44,325 nucleotides of DNA, taken from the NCBI GenBank assembly GCA_016938235.1, contig JAFGVA010000233.1, positions 1 to 44,325 on the forward strand, written 5' to 3'. The notes below the pieces were generated by a model. That model was given only the letters and a program-made list of their open reading frames with translations, ran no database searches and was not told the origin of the DNA. The translations under genes and the position numbers were made by a program. The stretch comes from Bacteroidales bacterium. GTDB taxonomy: Bacteria > Bacteroidota > Bacteroidia > Bacteroidales > UBA10428. This document shows positions 19,392 to 36,943 of the stretch, piece by piece (the stretch's first letter is position 1; each line of letters starts with the position of its first letter).

Positions 19392-20009
19392 CTAATCGCA
19401 GATTACAGGTTTCTCAGGAGAATCAAGAAATTCGAACATTATATTTATTTGTTCCTGAGAAATGCGTGGCGTTGATAGCGGTAAGCGTTCATATTCCGAC
19501 ATCCATTTTACATCCAGGGTTTCCATGCCTGGCTTGATTTCTCCACCCAGGTCATCGCAAAGAATAAAAAATTTATATATATGATATTTATCGGGCGGAT
19601 GATTATGCTTTGATTTATCGAATACTGCCAGCAAGCGGTCAGGCTTAACTTTCAAGCCGGCTTCTTCCCAAACTTCTTTTTCGGCAACTTCAAATGGAGT
19701 ATAGCCTACATCTGCCCATCCACCGGGCAAGGTCCAGTTTCCATCTATTCCTTCCTGTACCATTAAGAGCTTACCCTCGCGAAAAACAACTCCTCGTATA
19801 TCAACCTTTGGAGTTTGGTATCCTTTCTCTTCGGCAAAAAGCTCACGAATTTTTTCAATTGGTGCATCGGTGTATGCATGCATAATGTCTACACTAATTG
19901 AACGAATCATCTCATACCGCTCAAGATCATATTTGTCTGCACCAAATTCCAGGCCAGCCTGAGCAATAGCTTGAAGTTTTTTTGCAATATCAAGCCAGTC
20001 GAATGCCAT
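19392..20009 (-). CDS. Nudix hydrolase with the Nudix-N leader domain
   Basis: A 205-residue hydrolase. Residues 1-65 form the helical domain seen in the ADP-ribose/nucleoside-diphosphate-X Nudix subgroup, and residues 68-200 the Nudix fold. The Nudix box GGWADVGYTPFEVAEKEV (start) followed by WEEAGL keeps the catalytic EVxEEAG core, but has Tyr where many family members have Glu, and Lys in place of Arg in REx. Expected activity is cleavage of an ADP-linked or nucleoside diphosphate compound; substrate unknown. Its ATG shares one base with the stop of carB (TAATG), so it is translationally coupled with it. Confidence 0.85.
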   Translation of the reverse strand: MAFDWLDIAKKLQAIAQAGLEFGADKYDLERYEMIRSISVDIMHAYTDAPIEKIRELFAEEKGYQTPKVDIRGVVFREGKLLMVQEGIDGNWTLPGGWADVGYTPFEVAEKEVWEEAGLKVKPDRLLAVFDKSKHNHPPDKYHIYKFFILCDDLGGEIKPGMETLDVKWMSEYERLPLSTPRISQEQINIMFEFLDSPEKPVICD

Positions 20010-29308: not shown

Positions 29309-30655
29309 ATGGATTTTTTAAAAGACCTCGACAGTTTTTCAACTCAATCTTCGCAGATTGACAAAGAATTATTTACCCGTTTCGATGTAAAACGCGGATT
29401 AAGAAATGCCAATGGTTCTGGAGTATTGGTTGGATTGACCAATATTGGAGATGTTGTTGGATATGAAAAAGATGGTGATAAGGTTATACCTTGCCATGGG
29501 CAATTATTCTACAGGGGAATTAATGTGTACGATATTGTAAAGGGTTTTCAGAACGATCGGCGCCATGGATTCGATGAAACCGTTTACCTTCTTCTTTCAG
29601 GTAAATTGCCAAATAGTGAAGAACTGGCATCCATGACATCGTACCTGGCCTCACTGCGCGATCTTCCATCCTATTTTACTAAAAATATGTTATTGTCGTT
29701 GCGTGGAAAGAACATCATGAACATGTTGGCTCGTTCGGTACTTGTAATGTACACACTTGACGATAAAGCAGAAGACCAGTCACACCTGAATATTGTAAAG
29801 CAATCGCTTGATTTAATAGCAAAAATACCTGTAGTAACAGCATATTCTTATTTTGGTATGCGACACTCATTTCAGCGTAAGTCGCTTATCATAAGGCATC
29901 CGGAACCTTCACTCAGCACAGCTGAGAATTTCCTGTATATGCTGAAAGGTGAAAAATATTCTAAACTTGAAGCCGATATTCTTGACCTGAACCTTGTTCT
30001 GCATGCTGAACACGGTGGAGGTAATAATTCTTCATTCACTACCCGGGTTGTTAGTTCTTCAGGCACTGACACCTATTCAGCCATAGCAGCAGCGCTGGGC
30101 TCACTTAAAGGATTTCTGCACGGTGGTGCGAACCTGCAAGTGATGGAAATGATGAAAGATATAAAGAAAAACGTCAAAGACTGGAACGACAAGCAGGAAA
30201 TAGCCGATTACCTGTTAAAAATACTTCGCGGAAAAGCAGGCGATGGCTCTGGTAAAATTTACGGTATTGGCCATGCCATTTATACCTTGTCTGACCCGAG
30301 AGCCATACTTTTAAAAGAAAAGGCGCGTGAACTGGCAGAAGAGAAAGGCAAGCAGGATGAATTCAAACTTTATGAGAATATCGAAGAGCTTGCTCCTGAA
30401 GTATTTGCCAAATTCAAGGGTGGGGGCGATGTAAAAGTGATTTCCCCAAATGTCGATTTCTATAGTGGATTTGTTTACAGATGTATCGATATTCCTAAAG
30501 AACTCTACACACCAATCTTCGCATTATCTCGAATGGCAGGCTGGTGTGCTCATCGTCTGGAAGAAGTAACTTTCAGTTCGAAACGTATTATTCGTCCAGC
30601 GTATAAAAATGTTTACGGCAGGGCAGATTATGAAAACTTAGACGAAAGAGAATAA
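29309..30655 (+). CDS. gltA: Citrate (Si)-synthase family enzyme
   Basis: A 448-residue citrate synthase-fold enzyme condensing acetyl-CoA and oxaloacetate. Catalytic residues are visible: His232/His235 in LHAEHGGGNNS, the second His in FLHGGANLQV (about residue 271) and Asp383 in NVDFYSGFVY. A 2-methylcitrate synthase activity cannot be excluded from sequence. It stands alone between proA and the gltB leader, and supplies the carbon route to 2-oxoglutarate used by the adjacent glutamate synthase. No clear promoter box was seen in the 64 bases before it, so it may be read from proA. Confidence 0.88.
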   Translation: MDFLKDLDSFSTQSSQIDKELFTRFDVKRGLRNANGSGVLVGLTNIGDVVGYEKDGDKVIPCHGQLFYRGINVYDIVKGFQNDRRHGFDETVYLLLSGKLPNSEELASMTSYLASLRDLPSYFTKNMLLSLRGKNIMNMLARSVLVMYTLDDKAEDQSHLNIVKQSLDLIAKIPVVTAYSYFGMRHSFQRKSLIIRHPEPSLSTAENFLYMLKGEKYSKLEADILDLNLVLHAEHGGGNNSSFTTRVVSSSGTDTYSAIAAALGSLKGFLHGGANLQVMEMMKDIKKNVKDWNDKQEIADYLLKILRGKAGDGSGKIYGIGHAIYTLSDPRAILLKEKARELAEEKGKQDEFKLYENIEELAPEVFAKFKGGGDVKVISPNVDFYSGFVYRCIDIPKELYTPIFALSRMAGWCAHRLEEVTFSSKRIIRPAYKNVYGRADYENLDERE

Positions 30656-30750
30656 GACTGTTTTTTTAAAATTTATCAAAAAAACGAGCATTTTATTGAT
30701 AAATTATTGTTAAAACAATACGAACGCTTTTAACTTACAGTTTTAAGTAT

Positions 30751-30758
30751 TATATTTG
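30751..30758 (+). promoter_or_regulatory. -7 promoter element of the gltB leader
   Basis: TATATTTG is an exact TAnnTTTG match. TTT rather than TTG occupies the -33 position at 19-base spacing. Transcription would start near 30765, some 10 bases before the leader-peptide ATG, giving a short leader of about 170 bases in front of gltB. Confidence 0.6.
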
Positions 30759-30775
30759 CCTCACATTATAACAGA

Positions 30776-30832
30776 ATGAGAGCAAATACTTACTACATAA
30801 AATCAGTTAAGAAGATTCCCGGTGCCCTTTGA
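30776..30832 (+). CDS. Putative 18-residue leader peptide of the gltB attenuator
   Basis: An open frame from ATG to TGA encoding MRANTYYIKSVKKIPGAL. It lies just downstream of the promoter box and its TGA (30830-30832) overlaps the first two bases of the antiterminator stem, the geometry expected of a translated attenuator leader. It contains no Glu or Gln codon; two adjacent Tyr and two adjacent Lys codons are the only repeats. No ribosome-binding sequence is seen, which is normal in this phylum. Translation is inferred from position. Confidence 0.6.
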   Translation: MRANTYYIKSVKKIPGAL

Positions 30833-30888
30833 GAATGGCAGTAGGCCGATATTATAATAGCCATTCTCGCATAAAGAATGGCTTTTTT
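30831..30888 (+). promoter_or_regulatory. Transcription attenuator before gltB
   Basis: Two mutually exclusive 9-bp stems are visible. Antiterminator: GAGAATGGC (30831-30839) with GCCATTCTC (30860-30868). Terminator: AGCCATTCT (30859-30867) with AGAATGGCT (30875-30883), loop of 7, followed by six T residues (30883-30888). Both use the same middle segment, so only one can form. A ribosome resting at the leader stop codon would cover the first arm and favour the terminator; a ribosome stalled earlier would free it and favour readthrough into gltB. A small TGCC/GGCA hairpin (30823-30840) could act as protector. Confidence 0.75.
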
Positions 30889-30934
30889 ATTATTGAGAAG
30901 AAACGAAAAGAAATAGTTAACGAATAGACAGAAA

Positions 30935-33900
30935 ATGGTAAAAGGATTTCCTAAACCACAAGGATTGTATAACCCAAATAACGAACACGACAATTGTGGA
31001 ATTGGGTTTGTAACGCAGATAAAAGGGATTAAATCGCACGACATTATCACTAAAGGACTTGAAGTTCTTGTGAACATGACGCACCGTGGTGCAGAGAGCG
31101 CGGATAATGTTTCGGGCGACGGAGCAGGAATATTAATTCAGCTGCCCCATCAGTATTTCAAGGCCAAAAATATTCAGGTACCTGAAGAAGGAAAATACGG
31201 TGCAGGACTGGTATTTCTGCCTTATGAAACAAAGGCAAGAAAAACCTGCGAATCGGTTTTAATCGAAGCTGTTAAAGAAGAAGGTTTACGTGTAATTGAC
31301 ATGGTTGACGTTAAAGTCGACAGCCGTGTTCTTGGTGATATTTCCAGGTCTACCGAACCTTTTATCAAGCAAATATTTGTTACCGGTGATTTTCCTGAAC
31401 AGGATATTCTTGAAAGGAAACTTTATATTGCCCGTAAACAGGCAGAGAAGAAAATTCGGGAATCTAAAATAAAGGATAGAGAAGCATTTTATATGCCAAG
31501 CCTTTCAAGTAAGGTAATGATATATAAAGGAATGCTTGCACCCGATCAGGTGGGCAGATATTTTGTTGATTTGCGCGATTCAGATATGACAAGTGCCATT
31601 GCTCTTGTTCATTCTCGTTTCTCAACGAATACTTTTCCTACATGGGATTTGGCTCAACCCTTCCGCTTCCTTGCTCATAACGGTGAAATTAACACTGTAA
31701 AAGGGAATCGCATGTGGATGACTGCCCGTGAATCTATCATGAAATCAGATTTATTCGGAGATGATTTAGATAAACTGTTCCCCATCATTGAACCTGATAA
31801 ATCCGATTCAGCATCACTAGACAATGCCCTTGAATTTTTAGTGCTGACCGGCAAGTCTTTACCACAGGCATTGAGTATGCTCATTCCCGAATCGTGGAAC
31901 GATAAAAACCCAATACCACCTAGCTTAAAAGCATATTACGAGTACCAGTCAACCTTAATGGAACCCTGGGACGGACCAGCTTCTGTTGTTTTCAGTGACG
32001 GTCGTTACATTGGTGGAACTCTTGACAGAAACGGACTTCGACCCTCTCGTTTTGTAATTACAAAAGACGATGTAATTGTGATGGGTTCCGAAGTTGGAGT
32101 TCAGGTATTCGAGCCTGAAGTTATACGTGAAAAAGGACGTTTACGTCCGGGTAAAATCCTTTTGGTAGACACCAAAATGGGAATCATTATACCCGATGAG
32201 GAAGTAAAACATCAACTTTCTGACAGACATCCTTATTCACAGTGGCTTGCCGAAAACAGAGTCGATCTTGACGATATCAAAGTTAAAAAACGCATTCGCT
32301 CTCAACTCGACGATAAATACGATCAAACAGTTAAAACATTCGGATATACCAAAGAAGATTACGAAGTAATTCTTGCGCCCATGGGATCAGGAGGTCAGGA
32401 ACCTACACACTCTATGGGCAACGACACTCCTCTGGCTCTATTTTCAGATAAGCCACAGCGTATGTTTAATTACTTCAAACAACTTTTTGCACAGGTAACA
32501 AATCCACCAATTGATCCCATTCGTGAAGGGCTGGTTATGTCTCTGACCAATTACATAGGTTCAGTTTCAAAGAATTTGTTATTTGAGTCTGCAGAGCAAT
32601 GTCGCCAGATTAAGTTTGGTTCTCCGGTTGTATCAAATACCAACCTGAACAAACTAAGAAATATTAAAGAAGAGAATTTCAGCTATATCGATTTACCTAT
32701 TTTATTTGATGCAAAATCAAAAAATCCGGGTAAGGCACTTGAAACTGCACTTGATAATCTGTGCATATCAGCAGAAAAAGCAGTGGATGATGGAATTAAT
32801 TTCATCATTTTAAGTGACAGGGCTATTGATGAAAACAATGCTCCAATACCATCACTTTTGGCAACCTCGGCCGTACACCATCACCTAATTCGAAACAAGA
32901 AAAGAATGCAGGTTGGTCTGGTTGTTGAGACTGCCGAAGCCCGCGAAGTAAGTCATATCGCTTTACTTGTTGGTTATGGTGCAAGTGTTGTTAATCCTTA
33001 CGGGGCATTTGCTGCACTTGAGAAGCTTTGCAGCACCGGCAAAATAAAAATGGACTATGTTGAAGCCCGTGAAAATTATTATAAAGCAATAAATAAAGGA
33101 TTGCTTAAGATTCTTTCGAAAATGGGCATTTCTACACTTCGCAGTTATCATGGTGCCCAGATATTTGAATGTATTGGTCTTGATCCAAAATTTGTTGACA
33201 AATACTTTACTGGTACCGACAGCAGAATTGGTGGTATCGGACTTGATGAAATTGCTCAGGAAGCACTTATTCCTCATACCCAGGCATTTGAACAAAGTGC
33301 ACAGGGAAATGGAGAACTGAAGTCAGAGGGTATTTACCATTACCGTGTAAAAGGTGAAAAACACGGATGGAATCCCGAAACTATCGGATTACTTCAATGG
33401 GCAACCCGCACGGGTGATTATAAAAAATTCAAAGAGTTTAGTGCCGTTGTTGATGAGAATACCCGTAAGCCTCATTTTTTAAGGGGTTGTGTAAATATCA
33501 GAAAAGGAGAACCAATCCCTATTGAAGAAGTTGAACCTGTTGAAGAAATTACTAAACGGTTTGTATCAGGAGCAATGTCATACGGATCTATCAGTAAGGA
33601 AGCCCACGAGGCGCTTGCTATAGCTATGAACAAAATTGGTGGTAAAAGTAACACAGGCGAAGGTGGGGAAGACCCAGAAAGATTTTCTACTCGTCCCGAT
33701 GGTACTTCAGCACGTAGTGCAATCAAACAGGTAGCTTCCGGTCGTTTTGGTGTTACAACAAATTACCTTGTTAATGCCGATGAGATTCAGATTAAAGTAG
33801 CACAGGGAGCAAAACCCGGCGAAGGAGGACAGCTTCCCGGCCATAAAGTAAATAAAATTATTGCCAAAGTTAGAAATTCAACACCCGGTATTACGCTGAT

Positions 33901-35479
33901 ATCACCGCCACCTCATCACGATATCTATTCCATTGAGGATTTAGCACAGCTTATTTTCGATTTAAAGTGTACAAATCCGAAAGCTAAGATCAACGTAAAG
34001 CTGGTATCGGAAAGAGGTGTAGGAACCATTGCTGCGGGTGTAGCCAAAGCATATGCCGATAGTATAACTATTAGTGGTACCGAAGGCGGAACAGGAGCAA
34101 GTCCTGCAAGTTCTATCAAACATGCAGGTCTTCCAATGGAGCTTGGTATTTCCGAAGTTCAGCAAACCCTGGTAATCAATAATCTTCGCGACAGGGTAAA
34201 ACTTCAAACAGATGGTCAGATGAAAAATGGCCGTGATGTTGTTTATGCTGGTCTTTTGGGTGCCGAAGAATTTGGCTTTGCAACGATTGGGCTCATTGTA
34301 CTGGGTTGTGTAATGATGCGTAAGTGTCACCTGAATACATGTCCGGTGGGCGTTGCTACTCAAAATGAAGAATTACGCAAGCGTTTTACCGGTAAATCCG
34401 ATTACCTTGTGAACTACTTTACATTTGTTGCCCAGGAGGTTCGCGAATTGCTTGCAGAGATGGGATTCCGTAAGTTTGAAGATATCGTTGGACGTACCGA
34501 TCTTTTAGAGCAACGTACCGACATCGAACATTGGAAAGCAAAAACGGTGGATATGTCTAATATTCTTTTCCGTCCGAAAGAGGTTGAAATTCATGAGACA
34601 CATTGCTGTGTTGATCAGAAGCATAAAATCGAAGATGTTATGGATCACAGTCTGATTAAAAAAGCAAATCGTGCCATTAAGAATAAAGAAAAAGTCTGGA
34701 TTACTGAGTGCATACAAAATACCGACCGTACTGTTGGCGCCATGCTTTCAGGAGAGATTGTAAAACATCATGGCGGAGAAGGCCTGCCGGATGAAACATT
34801 AAACATTAAGTTTAAAGGTTCTGCCGGACAGAGCTTTGGTGCATTCCTTACAAAAGGAGTTAACTTCAAACTGGTTGGTGATAGTAACGATTATCTGGGT
34901 AAAGGTCTGTCAGGCGGAAGAATTACCGTAGTACCTCCAAAAGGGGTAAGTTATAAACCCGAAGAAAATATTATTGTTGGTAATACCTTATTGTATGGGG
35001 CTACCGATGGCGAAGTTTATATTCAGGGTGTAGCTGGCGAACGTTTCTGTGTACGAAACAGTGGTGCAAAAGCTGTCATTGAGGGTGTTGGAGATCACTG
35101 TTGCGAGTATATGACCGGAGGAAGAACAGTTGTGCTTGGTAAAACAGGCCGAAACTTTGCTGCCGGTATGAGTGGAGGTATAGCATACGTGCTTGATTTG
35201 GATCGGAATTTCGATTATTTCTGTAATAAAGGTCTTGTTGAACTGGGCCAGGTAGCTGATAAAGATGATGAATCTGAATTGCAGGAAATGATAGCGAAAC
35301 ACTATAAGTATACCGGTAGTGAACTTGCCGAGAAGATTTTGGTAAACTGGGACGAATACCTGCCAAAATTTGTGAAAGTCATTCCTCTTGAATATAAAAA
35401 GATTCTTGAGGAGCAAAAACTTGAACTAATACAAAGCAAGATCAAGCAAACTGAGGATGAACCTCACATTCAATATTAG
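30935..35479 (+). CDS. gltB: Glutamate synthase large subunit
   Basis: A 1514-residue multidomain enzyme making glutamate from glutamine and 2-oxoglutarate. A 20-residue propeptide precedes Cys21 (DNCGIGFVTQ), the N-terminal nucleophile of the amidotransferase domain (to about 420). A central domain follows, then the FMN-binding synthase barrel (about 800-1200, with SGAMSYGSIS, GEGGEDPERF and GGTGASPASS), the 3Fe-4S cluster Cys1125/Cys1131/Cys1136 in CVMMRKCHLNTCPVG, and the C-terminal beta-helix (GGRTVVLGKTGRNFAAGMSGG, in part). It is preceded by an attenuator and followed after 36 bases by gltD. Confidence 0.96.
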   Translation: MVKGFPKPQGLYNPNNEHDNCGIGFVTQIKGIKSHDIITKGLEVLVNMTHRGAESADNVSGDGAGILIQLPHQYFKAKNIQVPEEGKYGAGLVFLPYETKARKTCESVLIEAVKEEGLRVIDMVDVKVDSRVLGDISRSTEPFIKQIFVTGDFPEQDILERKLYIARKQAEKKIRESKIKDREAFYMPSLSSKVMIYKGMLAPDQVGRYFVDLRDSDMTSAIALVHSRFSTNTFPTWDLAQPFRFLAHNGEINTVKGNRMWMTARESIMKSDLFGDDLDKLFPIIEPDKSDSASLDNALEFLVLTGKSLPQALSMLIPESWNDKNPIPPSLKAYYEYQSTLMEPWDGPASVVFSDGRYIGGTLDRNGLRPSRFVITKDDVIVMGSEVGVQVFEPEVIREKGRLRPGKILLVDTKMGIIIPDEEVKHQLSDRHPYSQWLAENRVDLDDIKVKKRIRSQLDDKYDQTVKTFGYTKEDYEVILAPMGSGGQEPTHSMGNDTPLALFSDKPQRMFNYFKQLFAQVTNPPIDPIREGLVMSLTNYIGSVSKNLLFESAEQCRQIKFGSPVVSNTNLNKLRNIKEENFSYIDLPILFDAKSKNPGKALETALDNLCISAEKAVDDGINFIILSDRAIDENNAPIPSLLATSAVHHHLIRNKKRMQVGLVVETAEAREVSHIALLVGYGASVVNPYGAFAALEKLCSTGKIKMDYVEARENYYKAINKGLLKILSKMGISTLRSYHGAQIFECIGLDPKFVDKYFTGTDSRIGGIGLDEIAQEALIPHTQAFEQSAQGNGELKSEGIYHYRVKGEKHGWNPETIGLLQWATRTGDYKKFKEFSAVVDENTRKPHFLRGCVNIRKGEPIPIEEVEPVEEITKRFVSGAMSYGSISKEAHEALAIAMNKIGGKSNTGEGGEDPERFSTRPDGTSARSAIKQVASGRFGVTTNYLVNADEIQIKVAQGAKPGEGGQLPGHKVNKIIAKVRNSTPGITLISPPPHHDIYSIEDLAQLIFDLKCTNPKAKINVKLVSERGVGTIAAGVAKAYADSITISGTEGGTGASPASSIKHAGLPMELGISEVQQTLVINNLRDRVKLQTDGQMKNGRDVVYAGLLGAEEFGFATIGLIVLGCVMMRKCHLNTCPVGVATQNEELRKRFTGKSDYLVNYFTFVAQEVRELLAEMGFRKFEDIVGRTDLLEQRTDIEHWKAKTVDMSNILFRPKEVEIHETHCCVDQKHKIEDVMDHSLIKKANRAIKNKEKVWITECIQNTDRTVGAMLSGEIVKHHGGEGLPDETLNIKFKGSAGQSFGAFLTKGVNFKLVGDSNDYLGKGLSGGRITVVPPKGVSYKPEENIIVGNTLLYGATDGEVYIQGVAGERFCVRNSGAKAVIEGVGDHCCEYMTGGRTVVLGKTGRNFAAGMSGGIAYVLDLDRNFDYFCNKGLVELGQVADKDDESELQEMIAKHYKYTGSELAEKILVNWDEYLPKFVKVIPLEYKKILEEQKLELIQSKIKQTEDEPHIQY

Positions 35480-35515: not shown

Positions 35516-36943
35516 ATGGGAAACCCAAAAGGATTTTTGGAAATAGATCGCAAACCTGCCGGATACCGCCCGATAAATGAGCGGGTAAAAGATTACAGCG
35601 AAGTTGAGCAGGTTTTAGATGAGAAAGATCGCCGAGACCAGGCTTCTCGTTGCATGGACTGTGGAGTACCGTTTTGTTCATGGGGATGTCCGATAAACAA
35701 TAATATGCCCGAATGGCAGGATGCAATTTACAGGGGCGATTGGGATGAGGCTATAAAAATTCTGTCTCAAACAAATAATTTTCCTGAAGTAACCGGTCGT
35801 GTTTGTCCTGCACCTTGCGAACATGCCTGTACACTTAACATTCACGAACAACCTGTAACAATTCGTGAGAACGAATGTGCCACAGTTGAACAGGCTTTTG
35901 AACGCGGACTGATAAAAGCACAACCGCCAAAATTCAGGACCGGGAAAAAAGTTGCTGTTATTGGTTCAGGCCCTGCTGGACTTTCATGTGCTGATCTTCT
36001 TAATAAATGGGGGCATGAAGTAACAGTTTTTGAGAAGGATGAGGCACTTGGAGGATTAATGCGGTTTGGAATTCCTGATTTCAAACTTGAGAAAAGTGTT
36101 ATTCAACGCAGGGTTGATATTTTTGCTGAAGAAGGCCTTAAAATAAAAACCAACTGCACGGTTGGAGTTGATGTAAAAGGTAAAGATCTTTTAAAAGATT
36201 TCGATGCAGTAATCCTTGCGATAGGAGCTATGAAACCTCGTGATTTACAGGTTGAAGGTCGCGAATTAAAAGGAGTTCACTATGCAATGGAATTTTTGGG
36301 ACAGCAAAACAGGGTTGTAGCCGGCACAAAAATTGCTGAAAAGGACAAAATTTCTGCCAAAGGGAAAAATGTACTTGTAATTGGTGGTGGTGATACAGGA
36401 AGCGACTGTGTGGGTACTTCTGTACGTCATGGTGCAAAATCAATCCGACAGATTGAAATACTTCCAAAACCACCCGAAAAAAGAGCTGAAAACAATCCAT
36501 GGCCTTACTGGGCAAATACACTTCGCACATCTTCTTCACATTTGGAAGGCTGTGAGCGTGAGTGGCTGGTCAATACGAAGCGTCTGATTGCTGATGATAA
36601 AGGCAATGTAAAAGGAGCTGAAATTGTTGAAGTTGAATGGACAAAAGATAATAAAGGACAGTTTAAAATGATTGAAAAAGCAGGTACTGAACGTGTTGTT
36701 GAGGCCGATCTTGTTTTGCTTTCAATGGGTTTTGTTCACTGTATTCACGAAGGTCTTGCTGATGAACTTGGTTTAAAATACGACTTAAGGGGAAACATTG
36801 TTGTTGATGATAAAATGACTACCAGTAAAGCAAAAGTTTTTGCTGCCGGTGATGCGGTGTCTGGAGCTAGTTTAATTGTAAGAGCGATAGCTTCTGGCAG
36901 AAAAACTGCTGAGACCATCCATGAGTTTCTATCGTCAAAGTAG
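35516..36943 (+). CDS. gltD: Glutamate synthase small subunit
   Basis: A 475-residue flavoprotein that passes electrons from NADPH to GltB. The N-terminal domain has the two 4Fe-4S motifs, CMDCGVPFCSWGCPINN and CPAPCEHAC; the FAD Rossmann motif is VAVIGSGPAGLSCADLL near residue 145, and the NADPH motif VLVIGGGDTGSDCVG near residue 285. The C-terminus has the usual VFAAGDAVSGASLIVRAI. Length is standard. It is the last gene of gltBD, closed by a strong hairpin. Confidence 0.96.
   Translation: MGNPKGFLEIDRKPAGYRPINERVKDYSEVEQVLDEKDRRDQASRCMDCGVPFCSWGCPINNNMPEWQDAIYRGDWDEAIKILSQTNNFPEVTGRVCPAPCEHACTLNIHEQPVTIRENECATVEQAFERGLIKAQPPKFRTGKKVAVIGSGPAGLSCADLLNKWGHEVTVFEKDEALGGLMRFGIPDFKLEKSVIQRRVDIFAEEGLKIKTNCTVGVDVKGKDLLKDFDAVILAIGAMKPRDLQVEGRELKGVHYAMEFLGQQNRVVAGTKIAEKDKISAKGKNVLVIGGGDTGSDCVGTSVRHGAKSIRQIEILPKPPEKRAENNPWPYWANTLRTSSSHLEGCEREWLVNTKRLIADDKGNVKGAEIVEVEWTKDNKGQFKMIEKAGTERVVEADLVLLSMGFVHCIHEGLADELGLKYDLRGNIVVDDKMTTSKAKVFAAGDAVSGASLIVRAIASGRKTAETIHEFLSSK

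Follow-up and report, generated by a model that had tools for sequence, protein, structure and literature searches.

The window, by which we mean the whole stretch of 44,325 nucleotides of Bacteroidales DNA analysed here, contains the genes for the large and small subunits of glutamate synthase, gltB and gltD (Table 1). Judged by the first 300 residues encoded by gltB, the closest named relative is Bacteroidales bacterium UBA10428, with 89% identity. Between positions 20009 and 39659, gltB is preceded by carB (on the opposite strand), argG, argH, a proB-like gene, proA, and a citrate synthase gene, and gltD is followed by a gene for a thioredoxin-like DUF5106 protein and then carA; gltBD thus lies amid arginine, proline, and citrate genes. 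The interval between the citrate synthase gene and gltB holds a short leader element.

Table 1. Features of the gltBD locus and its leader (positions in the window)
Feature	Position	Strand	Evidence
Bacteroidetes-type -7 promoter box TATATTTG	30751..30758	+	sequence
Leader ORF, 18 sense codons + TGA, peptide MRANTYYIKSVKKIPGAL	30776..30832	+	sequence; comparable ORFs in relatives
Leader start codon ATG	30776..30778	+	read directly
Codon -6 from leader stop, AAG (Lys)	30812..30814	+	position class in gltB leaders
Leader stop codon TGA	30830..30832	+	read directly
Arm 1, antiterminator 5' arm GAGAATGGC, overlaps leader stop	30831..30839	+	
Terminator hairpin, whole	30859..30883	+	
Arm 2, shared arm GCCATTCTC: antiterminator 3' arm; with A30859, terminator 5' arm	30860..30868	+	
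8-bp terminator arm, 5' side GCCATTCT	30860..30867	+	
8-bp terminator arm, 3' side AGAATGGC	30875..30882	+	
Arm 3, terminator 3' arm AGAATGGC(T)	30875..30883	+	
Six-T run, intrinsic terminator	30883..30888	+	sequence
gltB, glutamate synthase large subunit	30935..35479	+	NF008730, 1794.7 bits
gltD, glutamate synthase small subunit	35516..36943	+	TIGR01317, 621.3 bits

A preliminary description of the locus had reported an 18-codon open reading frame (ORF) whose stop codon overlaps the 5' arm of a 9-bp antiterminator stem, and direct reading confirms this. Arm 1 has two bases in common with the leader stop codon and pairs perfectly with arm 2 over 9 bp. Arm 2 is common to both helices, and antiterminator and terminator are mutually exclusive. 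The terminator had been described as a 9-bp stem followed by six T residues; stem and T run are both present, but the ninth pair, A30859-T30883, takes the first T of the run, so that the structure amounts to 9 bp with five T or 8 bp with six. The promoter box noted earlier upstream of the leader ATG is also in place. We call TATATTTG a promoter box on the basis of what we take to be the consensus of the Bacteroidetes -7 box; it ends 17 bases before the ATG, and no convincing -33 box was seen by eye upstream of it. The pattern TA..TTTG occurs near the start in 23 of 34 gltB leaders, compared with 6.3% of base shuffles.

A strict scan of both strands of the window for perfect stems of at least 8 bp with at least five T yielded two terminators. 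One of them, the gltB leader element, has an alternative upstream arm, and 60 dinucleotide shuffles of the window gave no terminator with such an arm. The element is real and not a product of chance. Its folding energy is inconspicuous: the whole leader folds no more stably than shuffled sequences (z of -0.43 and -0.05). Taken alone, the antiterminator hairpin of the window has an energy of -13.6 kcal/mol and the terminator hairpin one of -11.6 kcal/mol, and the fold of the whole leader adopts the terminator. The terminator is the more stable of the two in 29 of 47 gltB, 47 of 85 ilvD, and 10 of 24 leuA leaders (see below for the latter two groups). The strong evidence for the element is, in our assessment, the comparison with related sequences.

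The three arms precede gltB in nearly all members of the host family. This family comprises 23 genomes including the window's own, and the gltB N-terminus finds a match in 21 of them. All three arms were found upstream of gltB in 19 of these 21 (own genome included), and a leader ORF accompanies them in 18 of the 19; the two genomes without arms carry divergent gltB genes with 54% and 47% identity. The preliminary description had named the absence of the ORF or of the alternative stems from related genomes as evidence that would speak against the element, and within the family we find the opposite. We aligned 25 gltB leaders, 19 from the host family and six from elsewhere. The terminator helix is paired in 99.6% of the cells of this alignment; 12 cells are changed on both sides, a number reached in none of 500 shuffles, and these changes fall in three pairs, a number reached in 72 of 500. 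A wider set, whose alignment was fitted to the model, gave 26 both-side cells (0 of 500) in four pairs (31 of 500). The antiterminator is paired in 95.6% of cells, compared with 38-53% when slid. Its changes are one-sided only, and since arm 1 scarcely varies, shuffled columns pair equally well (490 of 500). Among 81 further gltB loci, which include the two remaining family members and non-Bacteroidetes and from which five copies had been removed, the only matches to the model were two weak ones: L039, with 26.2 bits, is in the right place and has an ORF, and L073 is on the wrong strand. Outside the host family, the element is patchy.

To call a leader ORF, we required an ATG start, a length of 12-33 codons, and a stop near arm 1. 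By this rule, 34 of 35 gltB elements have one, with 14-25 codons and ending within 8 bases before arm 1; shuffled upstream sequences contain a 14-25-codon leader ORF at a rate of 4.2% per element. With 14 leaders from one other family, the set grows to 48, in which two leaders with identical peptides, probably from one genome, are both counted; only one of them is among the 33 non-redundant representatives used below. Among the 48 gltB leaders, 42 (that of the window included) have the stop one base upstream of arm 1, as do 77 of 86 ilvD leaders and 16 of 24 leuA leaders; the mean length is 18.6 codons for gltB and 20.6 codons for both ilvD and leuA. Across the 18 family leaders, stop codons number 23 in one alternative frame and 41 in the other. 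One other genus supplied 13 leaders that could be aligned; their pN/pS is 0.59 for the leader frame, compared with 0.88 and 0.83 for the remaining two, values given here without a significance test. The leader peptides show no conservation between genera. In one family leader (L018), CGA stands in place of TGA; the frame continues into the hairpins, and the arms are intact. A conserved re-initiation ORF starting at an ATG within arm 1 was considered and dropped, as the frame lengths, inspected by eye, vary widely and several frames end after 2-4 codons.

The position of the ORF bears on an alternative account of the element, in which it is the terminator of the upstream citrate synthase gene, or a metabolite-binding RNA, and the ORF is coincidental. 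Arm 2 starts 205 bases past the end of the citrate synthase gene at 30655, which would suit such a terminator, but a coincidental ORF should not end at arm 1 with the regularity just described. A promoter box lies between the two genes, and branched-chain modules of the same kind precede ilvD and leuA. Moreover, no Rfam family, whether riboswitch, T-box, Bacteroid-trp, or other, reaches its curated gathering score in the window; region 30400-31100 gave just RF03225 and RF02849, both at chance level and far below gathering. Of nine loci of the attenuator family described below, none matches Rfam at the gathering score; this includes Bacteroid-trp RNA, which we take to be an attenuator. A riboswitch or other Rfam family was dropped from consideration for lack of any match at the gathering score, and we regard the whole account as highly improbable.

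To place the gltB leader among related elements, we used two covariance models, R1, built from gltB leaders only, and R2, a wider model. The window element scores 60.3 bits with R1 and 54.4 bits with R2, but these scores are not independent, as the window sequence was among the training set of both. On the window's own genome, R1 also found the matches C16 (46.3 bits) and C126 (31 bits). The first precedes ilvD (dihydroxy-acid dehydratase) and the second leuA (2-isopropylmalate synthase), both genes being confirmed by NCBIfam, and the corresponding leader peptides are MRNIITVVLSILVLVVKMTG and MKNYTSILSIILLLGIIILQG. By their sequences, these look like textbook branched-chain leaders. Two further matches, C167 (37.4 bits with R1 and 39.2 with R2) and C216 (34.6 and 36.4 bits), score higher than the leuA element with R1 but lower than it with R2 (42.1 bits); they were not counted, since both lack an ORF of leader size that ends at arm 1, and weaker matches were treated likewise.

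Similar elements are found well beyond this genome. R1 finds a match at E up to 0.01 in 103 of 392 genomes from the order, some of the weaker of these matches probably being ordinary terminators. For R2, the figure is 37 of 395 genomes from the class at E up to 0.001. The elements analysed were the best-scoring matches; they include a minority of the order-level R1 matches weaker than an E of about 9e-4 and a portion of the R2 matches in the class. Among the 157 best-scoring elements, 70 precede ilvD, 35 gltB, and 27 leuA, and 25 none of these; in a later set of 37 elements, only one had none of the three genes downstream. Six of the 70 ilvD elements, three of the 27 leuA elements, and one of the 35 gltB elements have no ORF by the rule and were left out of the leader counts, which do include five ilvD-class elements and one leuA-class element lying 0.9-1.1 kb before the matched gene. 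Measured against base shuffles, Val, Ile, and Leu are enriched in the 64 ilvD leaders (z of +22, +17, and +5), and Ile, Gly, and Leu in the 24 leuA leaders (z of +14, +7, and +6); by the same measure, the gltB leaders show no richness of the Ile/Leu/Val type and no single dominant amino acid. The arms of all three groups share the consensus TGAGAATGG ... CCATTCTC ... GAATGG. By this comparison, the gltB leader is a member of a Bacteroidales TGAGAATGG attenuator family, defined here and unmatched by Rfam. It resembles the ilvD and leuA attenuators in arm sequences, stop position, approximate leader length, and co-occurrence in its own genome. Because it has both the design and the arms of branched-chain attenuators, a ribosome-dependent reading is very likely, and the gltB leader is conserved and very probably a working leader-peptide attenuator. 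The proposal in the preliminary description that gltBD expression is set by ribosome progress through the leader thus gains support from the homologous modules with Ile/Leu/Val-rich leaders that the window's own genome carries upstream of ilvD and leuA.

Several individual elements deserve mention. In three genomes, ilvD is preceded by a tandem pair of attenuators 186-207 bases apart, each with a branched-chain leader. Six related elements in other Bacteroidia precede acetolactate synthase-like genes, five identified by eye and one, behind an element from the 25 counted above as having none of the three genes downstream, confirmed by NCBIfam; several of them have Val-rich leaders and arms like GAGAAAG/CTTTCTC. 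Two weak related elements, without a leader ORF by the rule, precede an aminotransferase-like gene (identified by eye). A genome of the same genus as the window carries a gltB-type leader, MKNHTNTSNQNKNVRK, together with the arms (L202), and no gltB match in the stretch behind it; this genome has a divergent gltB, and the leader is perhaps a remnant after gene loss. In three elements, inspected by eye, arm 1 is kept as GAGAATGG despite an arm 2 of CCTTTCTC, which leaves a U-U mismatch. Something beyond pairing with arm 2 seems to constrain arm 1, perhaps a protector stem in the case of ilvD leaders.

Leader-peptide attenuators of the Yanofsky type, known from the trp, his, and ilv operons of Proteobacteria, consist of a leader ORF, an antiterminator/terminator switch, and a T run. 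The gltB element resembles them in having a short leader ORF immediately ahead of the hairpins, in a stop placed so that a terminating ribosome would mask the 5' arm of the antiterminator, and in its mutually exclusive antiterminator and terminator with a T run. In contrast to them, it has no run of codons for the product, the window leader has no protector stem, and the operon is gltBD. In the window, the energy of a candidate stem 1:2 has a z of +2.3, and the pairing of arm 1 is 0.31, compared with 0.37 in shuffled sequences. Pairing of arm 1 with the ORF exceeds that of shuffled sequences in 62 of 64 ilvD leaders (mean z -2.41) and 22 of 24 leuA leaders (z -2.37); as far as their sequences tell, these are attenuators with the classic four arms, and they differ from the gltB leader in this stem as well as in their Ile/Leu/Val richness. 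For gltB leaders, the proportion is 21 of 34 (z -0.89), which splits into 8 of 18 in the window's family (z -0.49) and 13 of 16 among the others (z -1.35). The preliminary description had spoken of a complete, classic amino-acid attenuator. The ORF, the placement of its stop, and the exclusive hairpins are in keeping with that design, but the words complete and classic are not borne out: the protector stem is missing in the window, and the codons of the expected product are depleted.

This depletion emerged when we compared the 564 codons of the 33 non-redundant gltB leaders with dinucleotide shuffles lacking in-frame stops. Glu and Gln together occur 25 times, compared with 43.6 expected, and none of 1000 shuffles fell below 25; the window peptide contains neither. 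Classical product-specific attenuation through glutamate or glutamine codons is therefore rejected on the codon counts and is hardly credible as an explanation. Gln does occur eight times at codon -2 or -3 in the 18 family leaders, mostly in one genus, but a ribosome stalled at either codon would still mask arm 1.

Other residues exceed expectation in the same 33 leaders. Lys occurs 79 times (59.6 expected), a count reached in none of 1000 shuffles; His (27 vs 18.3), Asn (61 vs 49.9), and Ser (56 vs 45.0) are mildly enriched, and Arg alone is not (30 vs 34.4). Lys, Asn, His, and Arg taken together occur 197 times, compared with 162.2 expected (0 of 1000 shuffles), a grouping that was made after the counts were known and that needs an independent test. 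The composition varies with lineage. Leaders of the host family are high in Asn (46 vs 31.2), low in His (4 vs 7.6), and weakly elevated in Lys (43 vs 37.4); gltB leaders outside the family are high in His (22 vs 9.8), low in Asn (13 vs 19.1), and elevated in Lys (38 vs 23.2). Only Lys lies above expectation within the host family and outside it alike. The mix consists of Lys with Asn in the window's family; a second family has Arg with Lys, and a third combines His with Lys and Asn. In the window peptide, Lys, Asn, Arg, and His make up five of the 17 residues after Met, a smaller share than the set's mean of 35%.

The preference is sharpest at codon -6, which encodes Lys, Asn, Arg, or His in 28 of the 33 non-redundant gltB leaders (p = 5e-9, uncorrected for 15 positions). 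Among all 48 gltB leaders, this codon falls in the same class in 42 and encodes Ile, Leu, or Val in one; at the same position, 85 of 86 ilvD and 21 of 24 leuA leaders have Ile, Leu, or Val. A ribosome's footprint extends about a dozen bases past the codon it occupies. Class-specific residues at codon -6 fit this geometry, since the codon lies near the last position at which a stalled ribosome would leave arm 1 open.

Our best explanation, which we consider likely on the sequence comparisons given above, is that gltBD is controlled by a ribosome-dependent transcription attenuator that responds not to glutamate or glutamine but to how well other amino acids, rich in nitrogen, are supplied, or to translation generally. 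Transcription would start just after the TATATTTG box, and a ribosome would translate the 18-codon leader, as suggested by the open frame in the window and by the conservation of similar frames. A fast ribosome would reach the UGA and mask arm 1, so that arms 2 and 3 pair and transcription stops at the T run. If the ribosome is held at least about five or six codons before the stop, or is not loaded, arm 1 would pair with arm 2 and gltBD would be transcribed. In a last and weaker step, the switch may read the charging of Lys, Asn, Arg, and His tRNAs, or of aminoacyl-tRNAs generally, as a proxy for nitrogen supply. The mixed Lys/Asn/Arg/His zone would not allow one amino acid to be read sharply; it would answer a broad shortage.

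Whether particular codons matter in this scheme is where two readings part. Tentatively, the gltB leader can be seen as a nitrogen gauge that uses codons of nitrogen-rich amino acids and not those of its own product, a reading made attractive by the fact that glutamate synthase supplies amino nitrogen. Alternatively, the leader may be blind to its codons: only the loading and running of the ribosome would count, and A-rich codons would serve to keep the RNA unstructured and arm 1 free. No amino acid dominates the gltB leaders, their commonest codons in the family are AAT, AAA, and ATT, and arm 1 pairs with the ORF in family leaders much as in shuffled sequences (0.42 vs 0.39, above shuffled in the 8 of 18 already given), all as a codon-blind switch would have it. 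The Lys/Asn/Arg/His bias itself may arise at the nucleotide level, from a preference for RNA that is A-rich and unstructured, though dinucleotides were preserved in the shuffles. Against the codon-blind switch, the residue preference peaks at codon -6, the very position that is almost invariably Ile, Leu, or Val in ilvD leaders, and the His codons and AGG Arg codons found there in other families are not AAN codons. We regard the codon-blind switch as possible but somewhat doubtful; it has the first four steps of the mechanism in common with our best explanation, and the confidence we place in the two overlaps. If the nitrogen gauge were true, scarcity of the most nitrogen-costly aminoacyl-tRNAs would switch on the enzyme that supplies amino nitrogen.

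Attenuation of amino-acid operons was reportedly surveyed by Vitreschak et al. in 2004, with cases from the Bacteroidetes/Chlorobi included. Bacteroid-trp RNA (RF01692) is listed as a likely cis-regulatory RNA in Bacteroidetes (PMC2864571), Flavobacterium psychrophilum is reported to show hints of leader-peptide attenuation upstream of amino-acid operons (PMC9723704), and short ORFs reminiscent of leader peptides are mentioned for Bacteroides thetaiotaomicron (PMC7366714). The preliminary description knew of no attenuator for gltB in Bacteroidetes, and our full-text searches of open-licence papers agree, as they revealed no description of an attenuator of gltB, of gltBD, or of a Bacteroides glutamate synthase. 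As far as these searches reach, both the operon and the codon logic are new for a device of this known kind.

The family of attenuators with common arms before ilvD, leuA, and gltB amounts to a natural experiment, one switch being combined with several sets of codons. In its gltB version, ribosome progress is uncoupled from product codons, which makes it possible to test whether an attenuator can respond to a class of amino acids instead of a single one. To our knowledge, little is known about the regulation of central nitrogen assimilation in Bacteroidetes, and the leader described here suggests that leader-peptide attenuation extends to gltBD.
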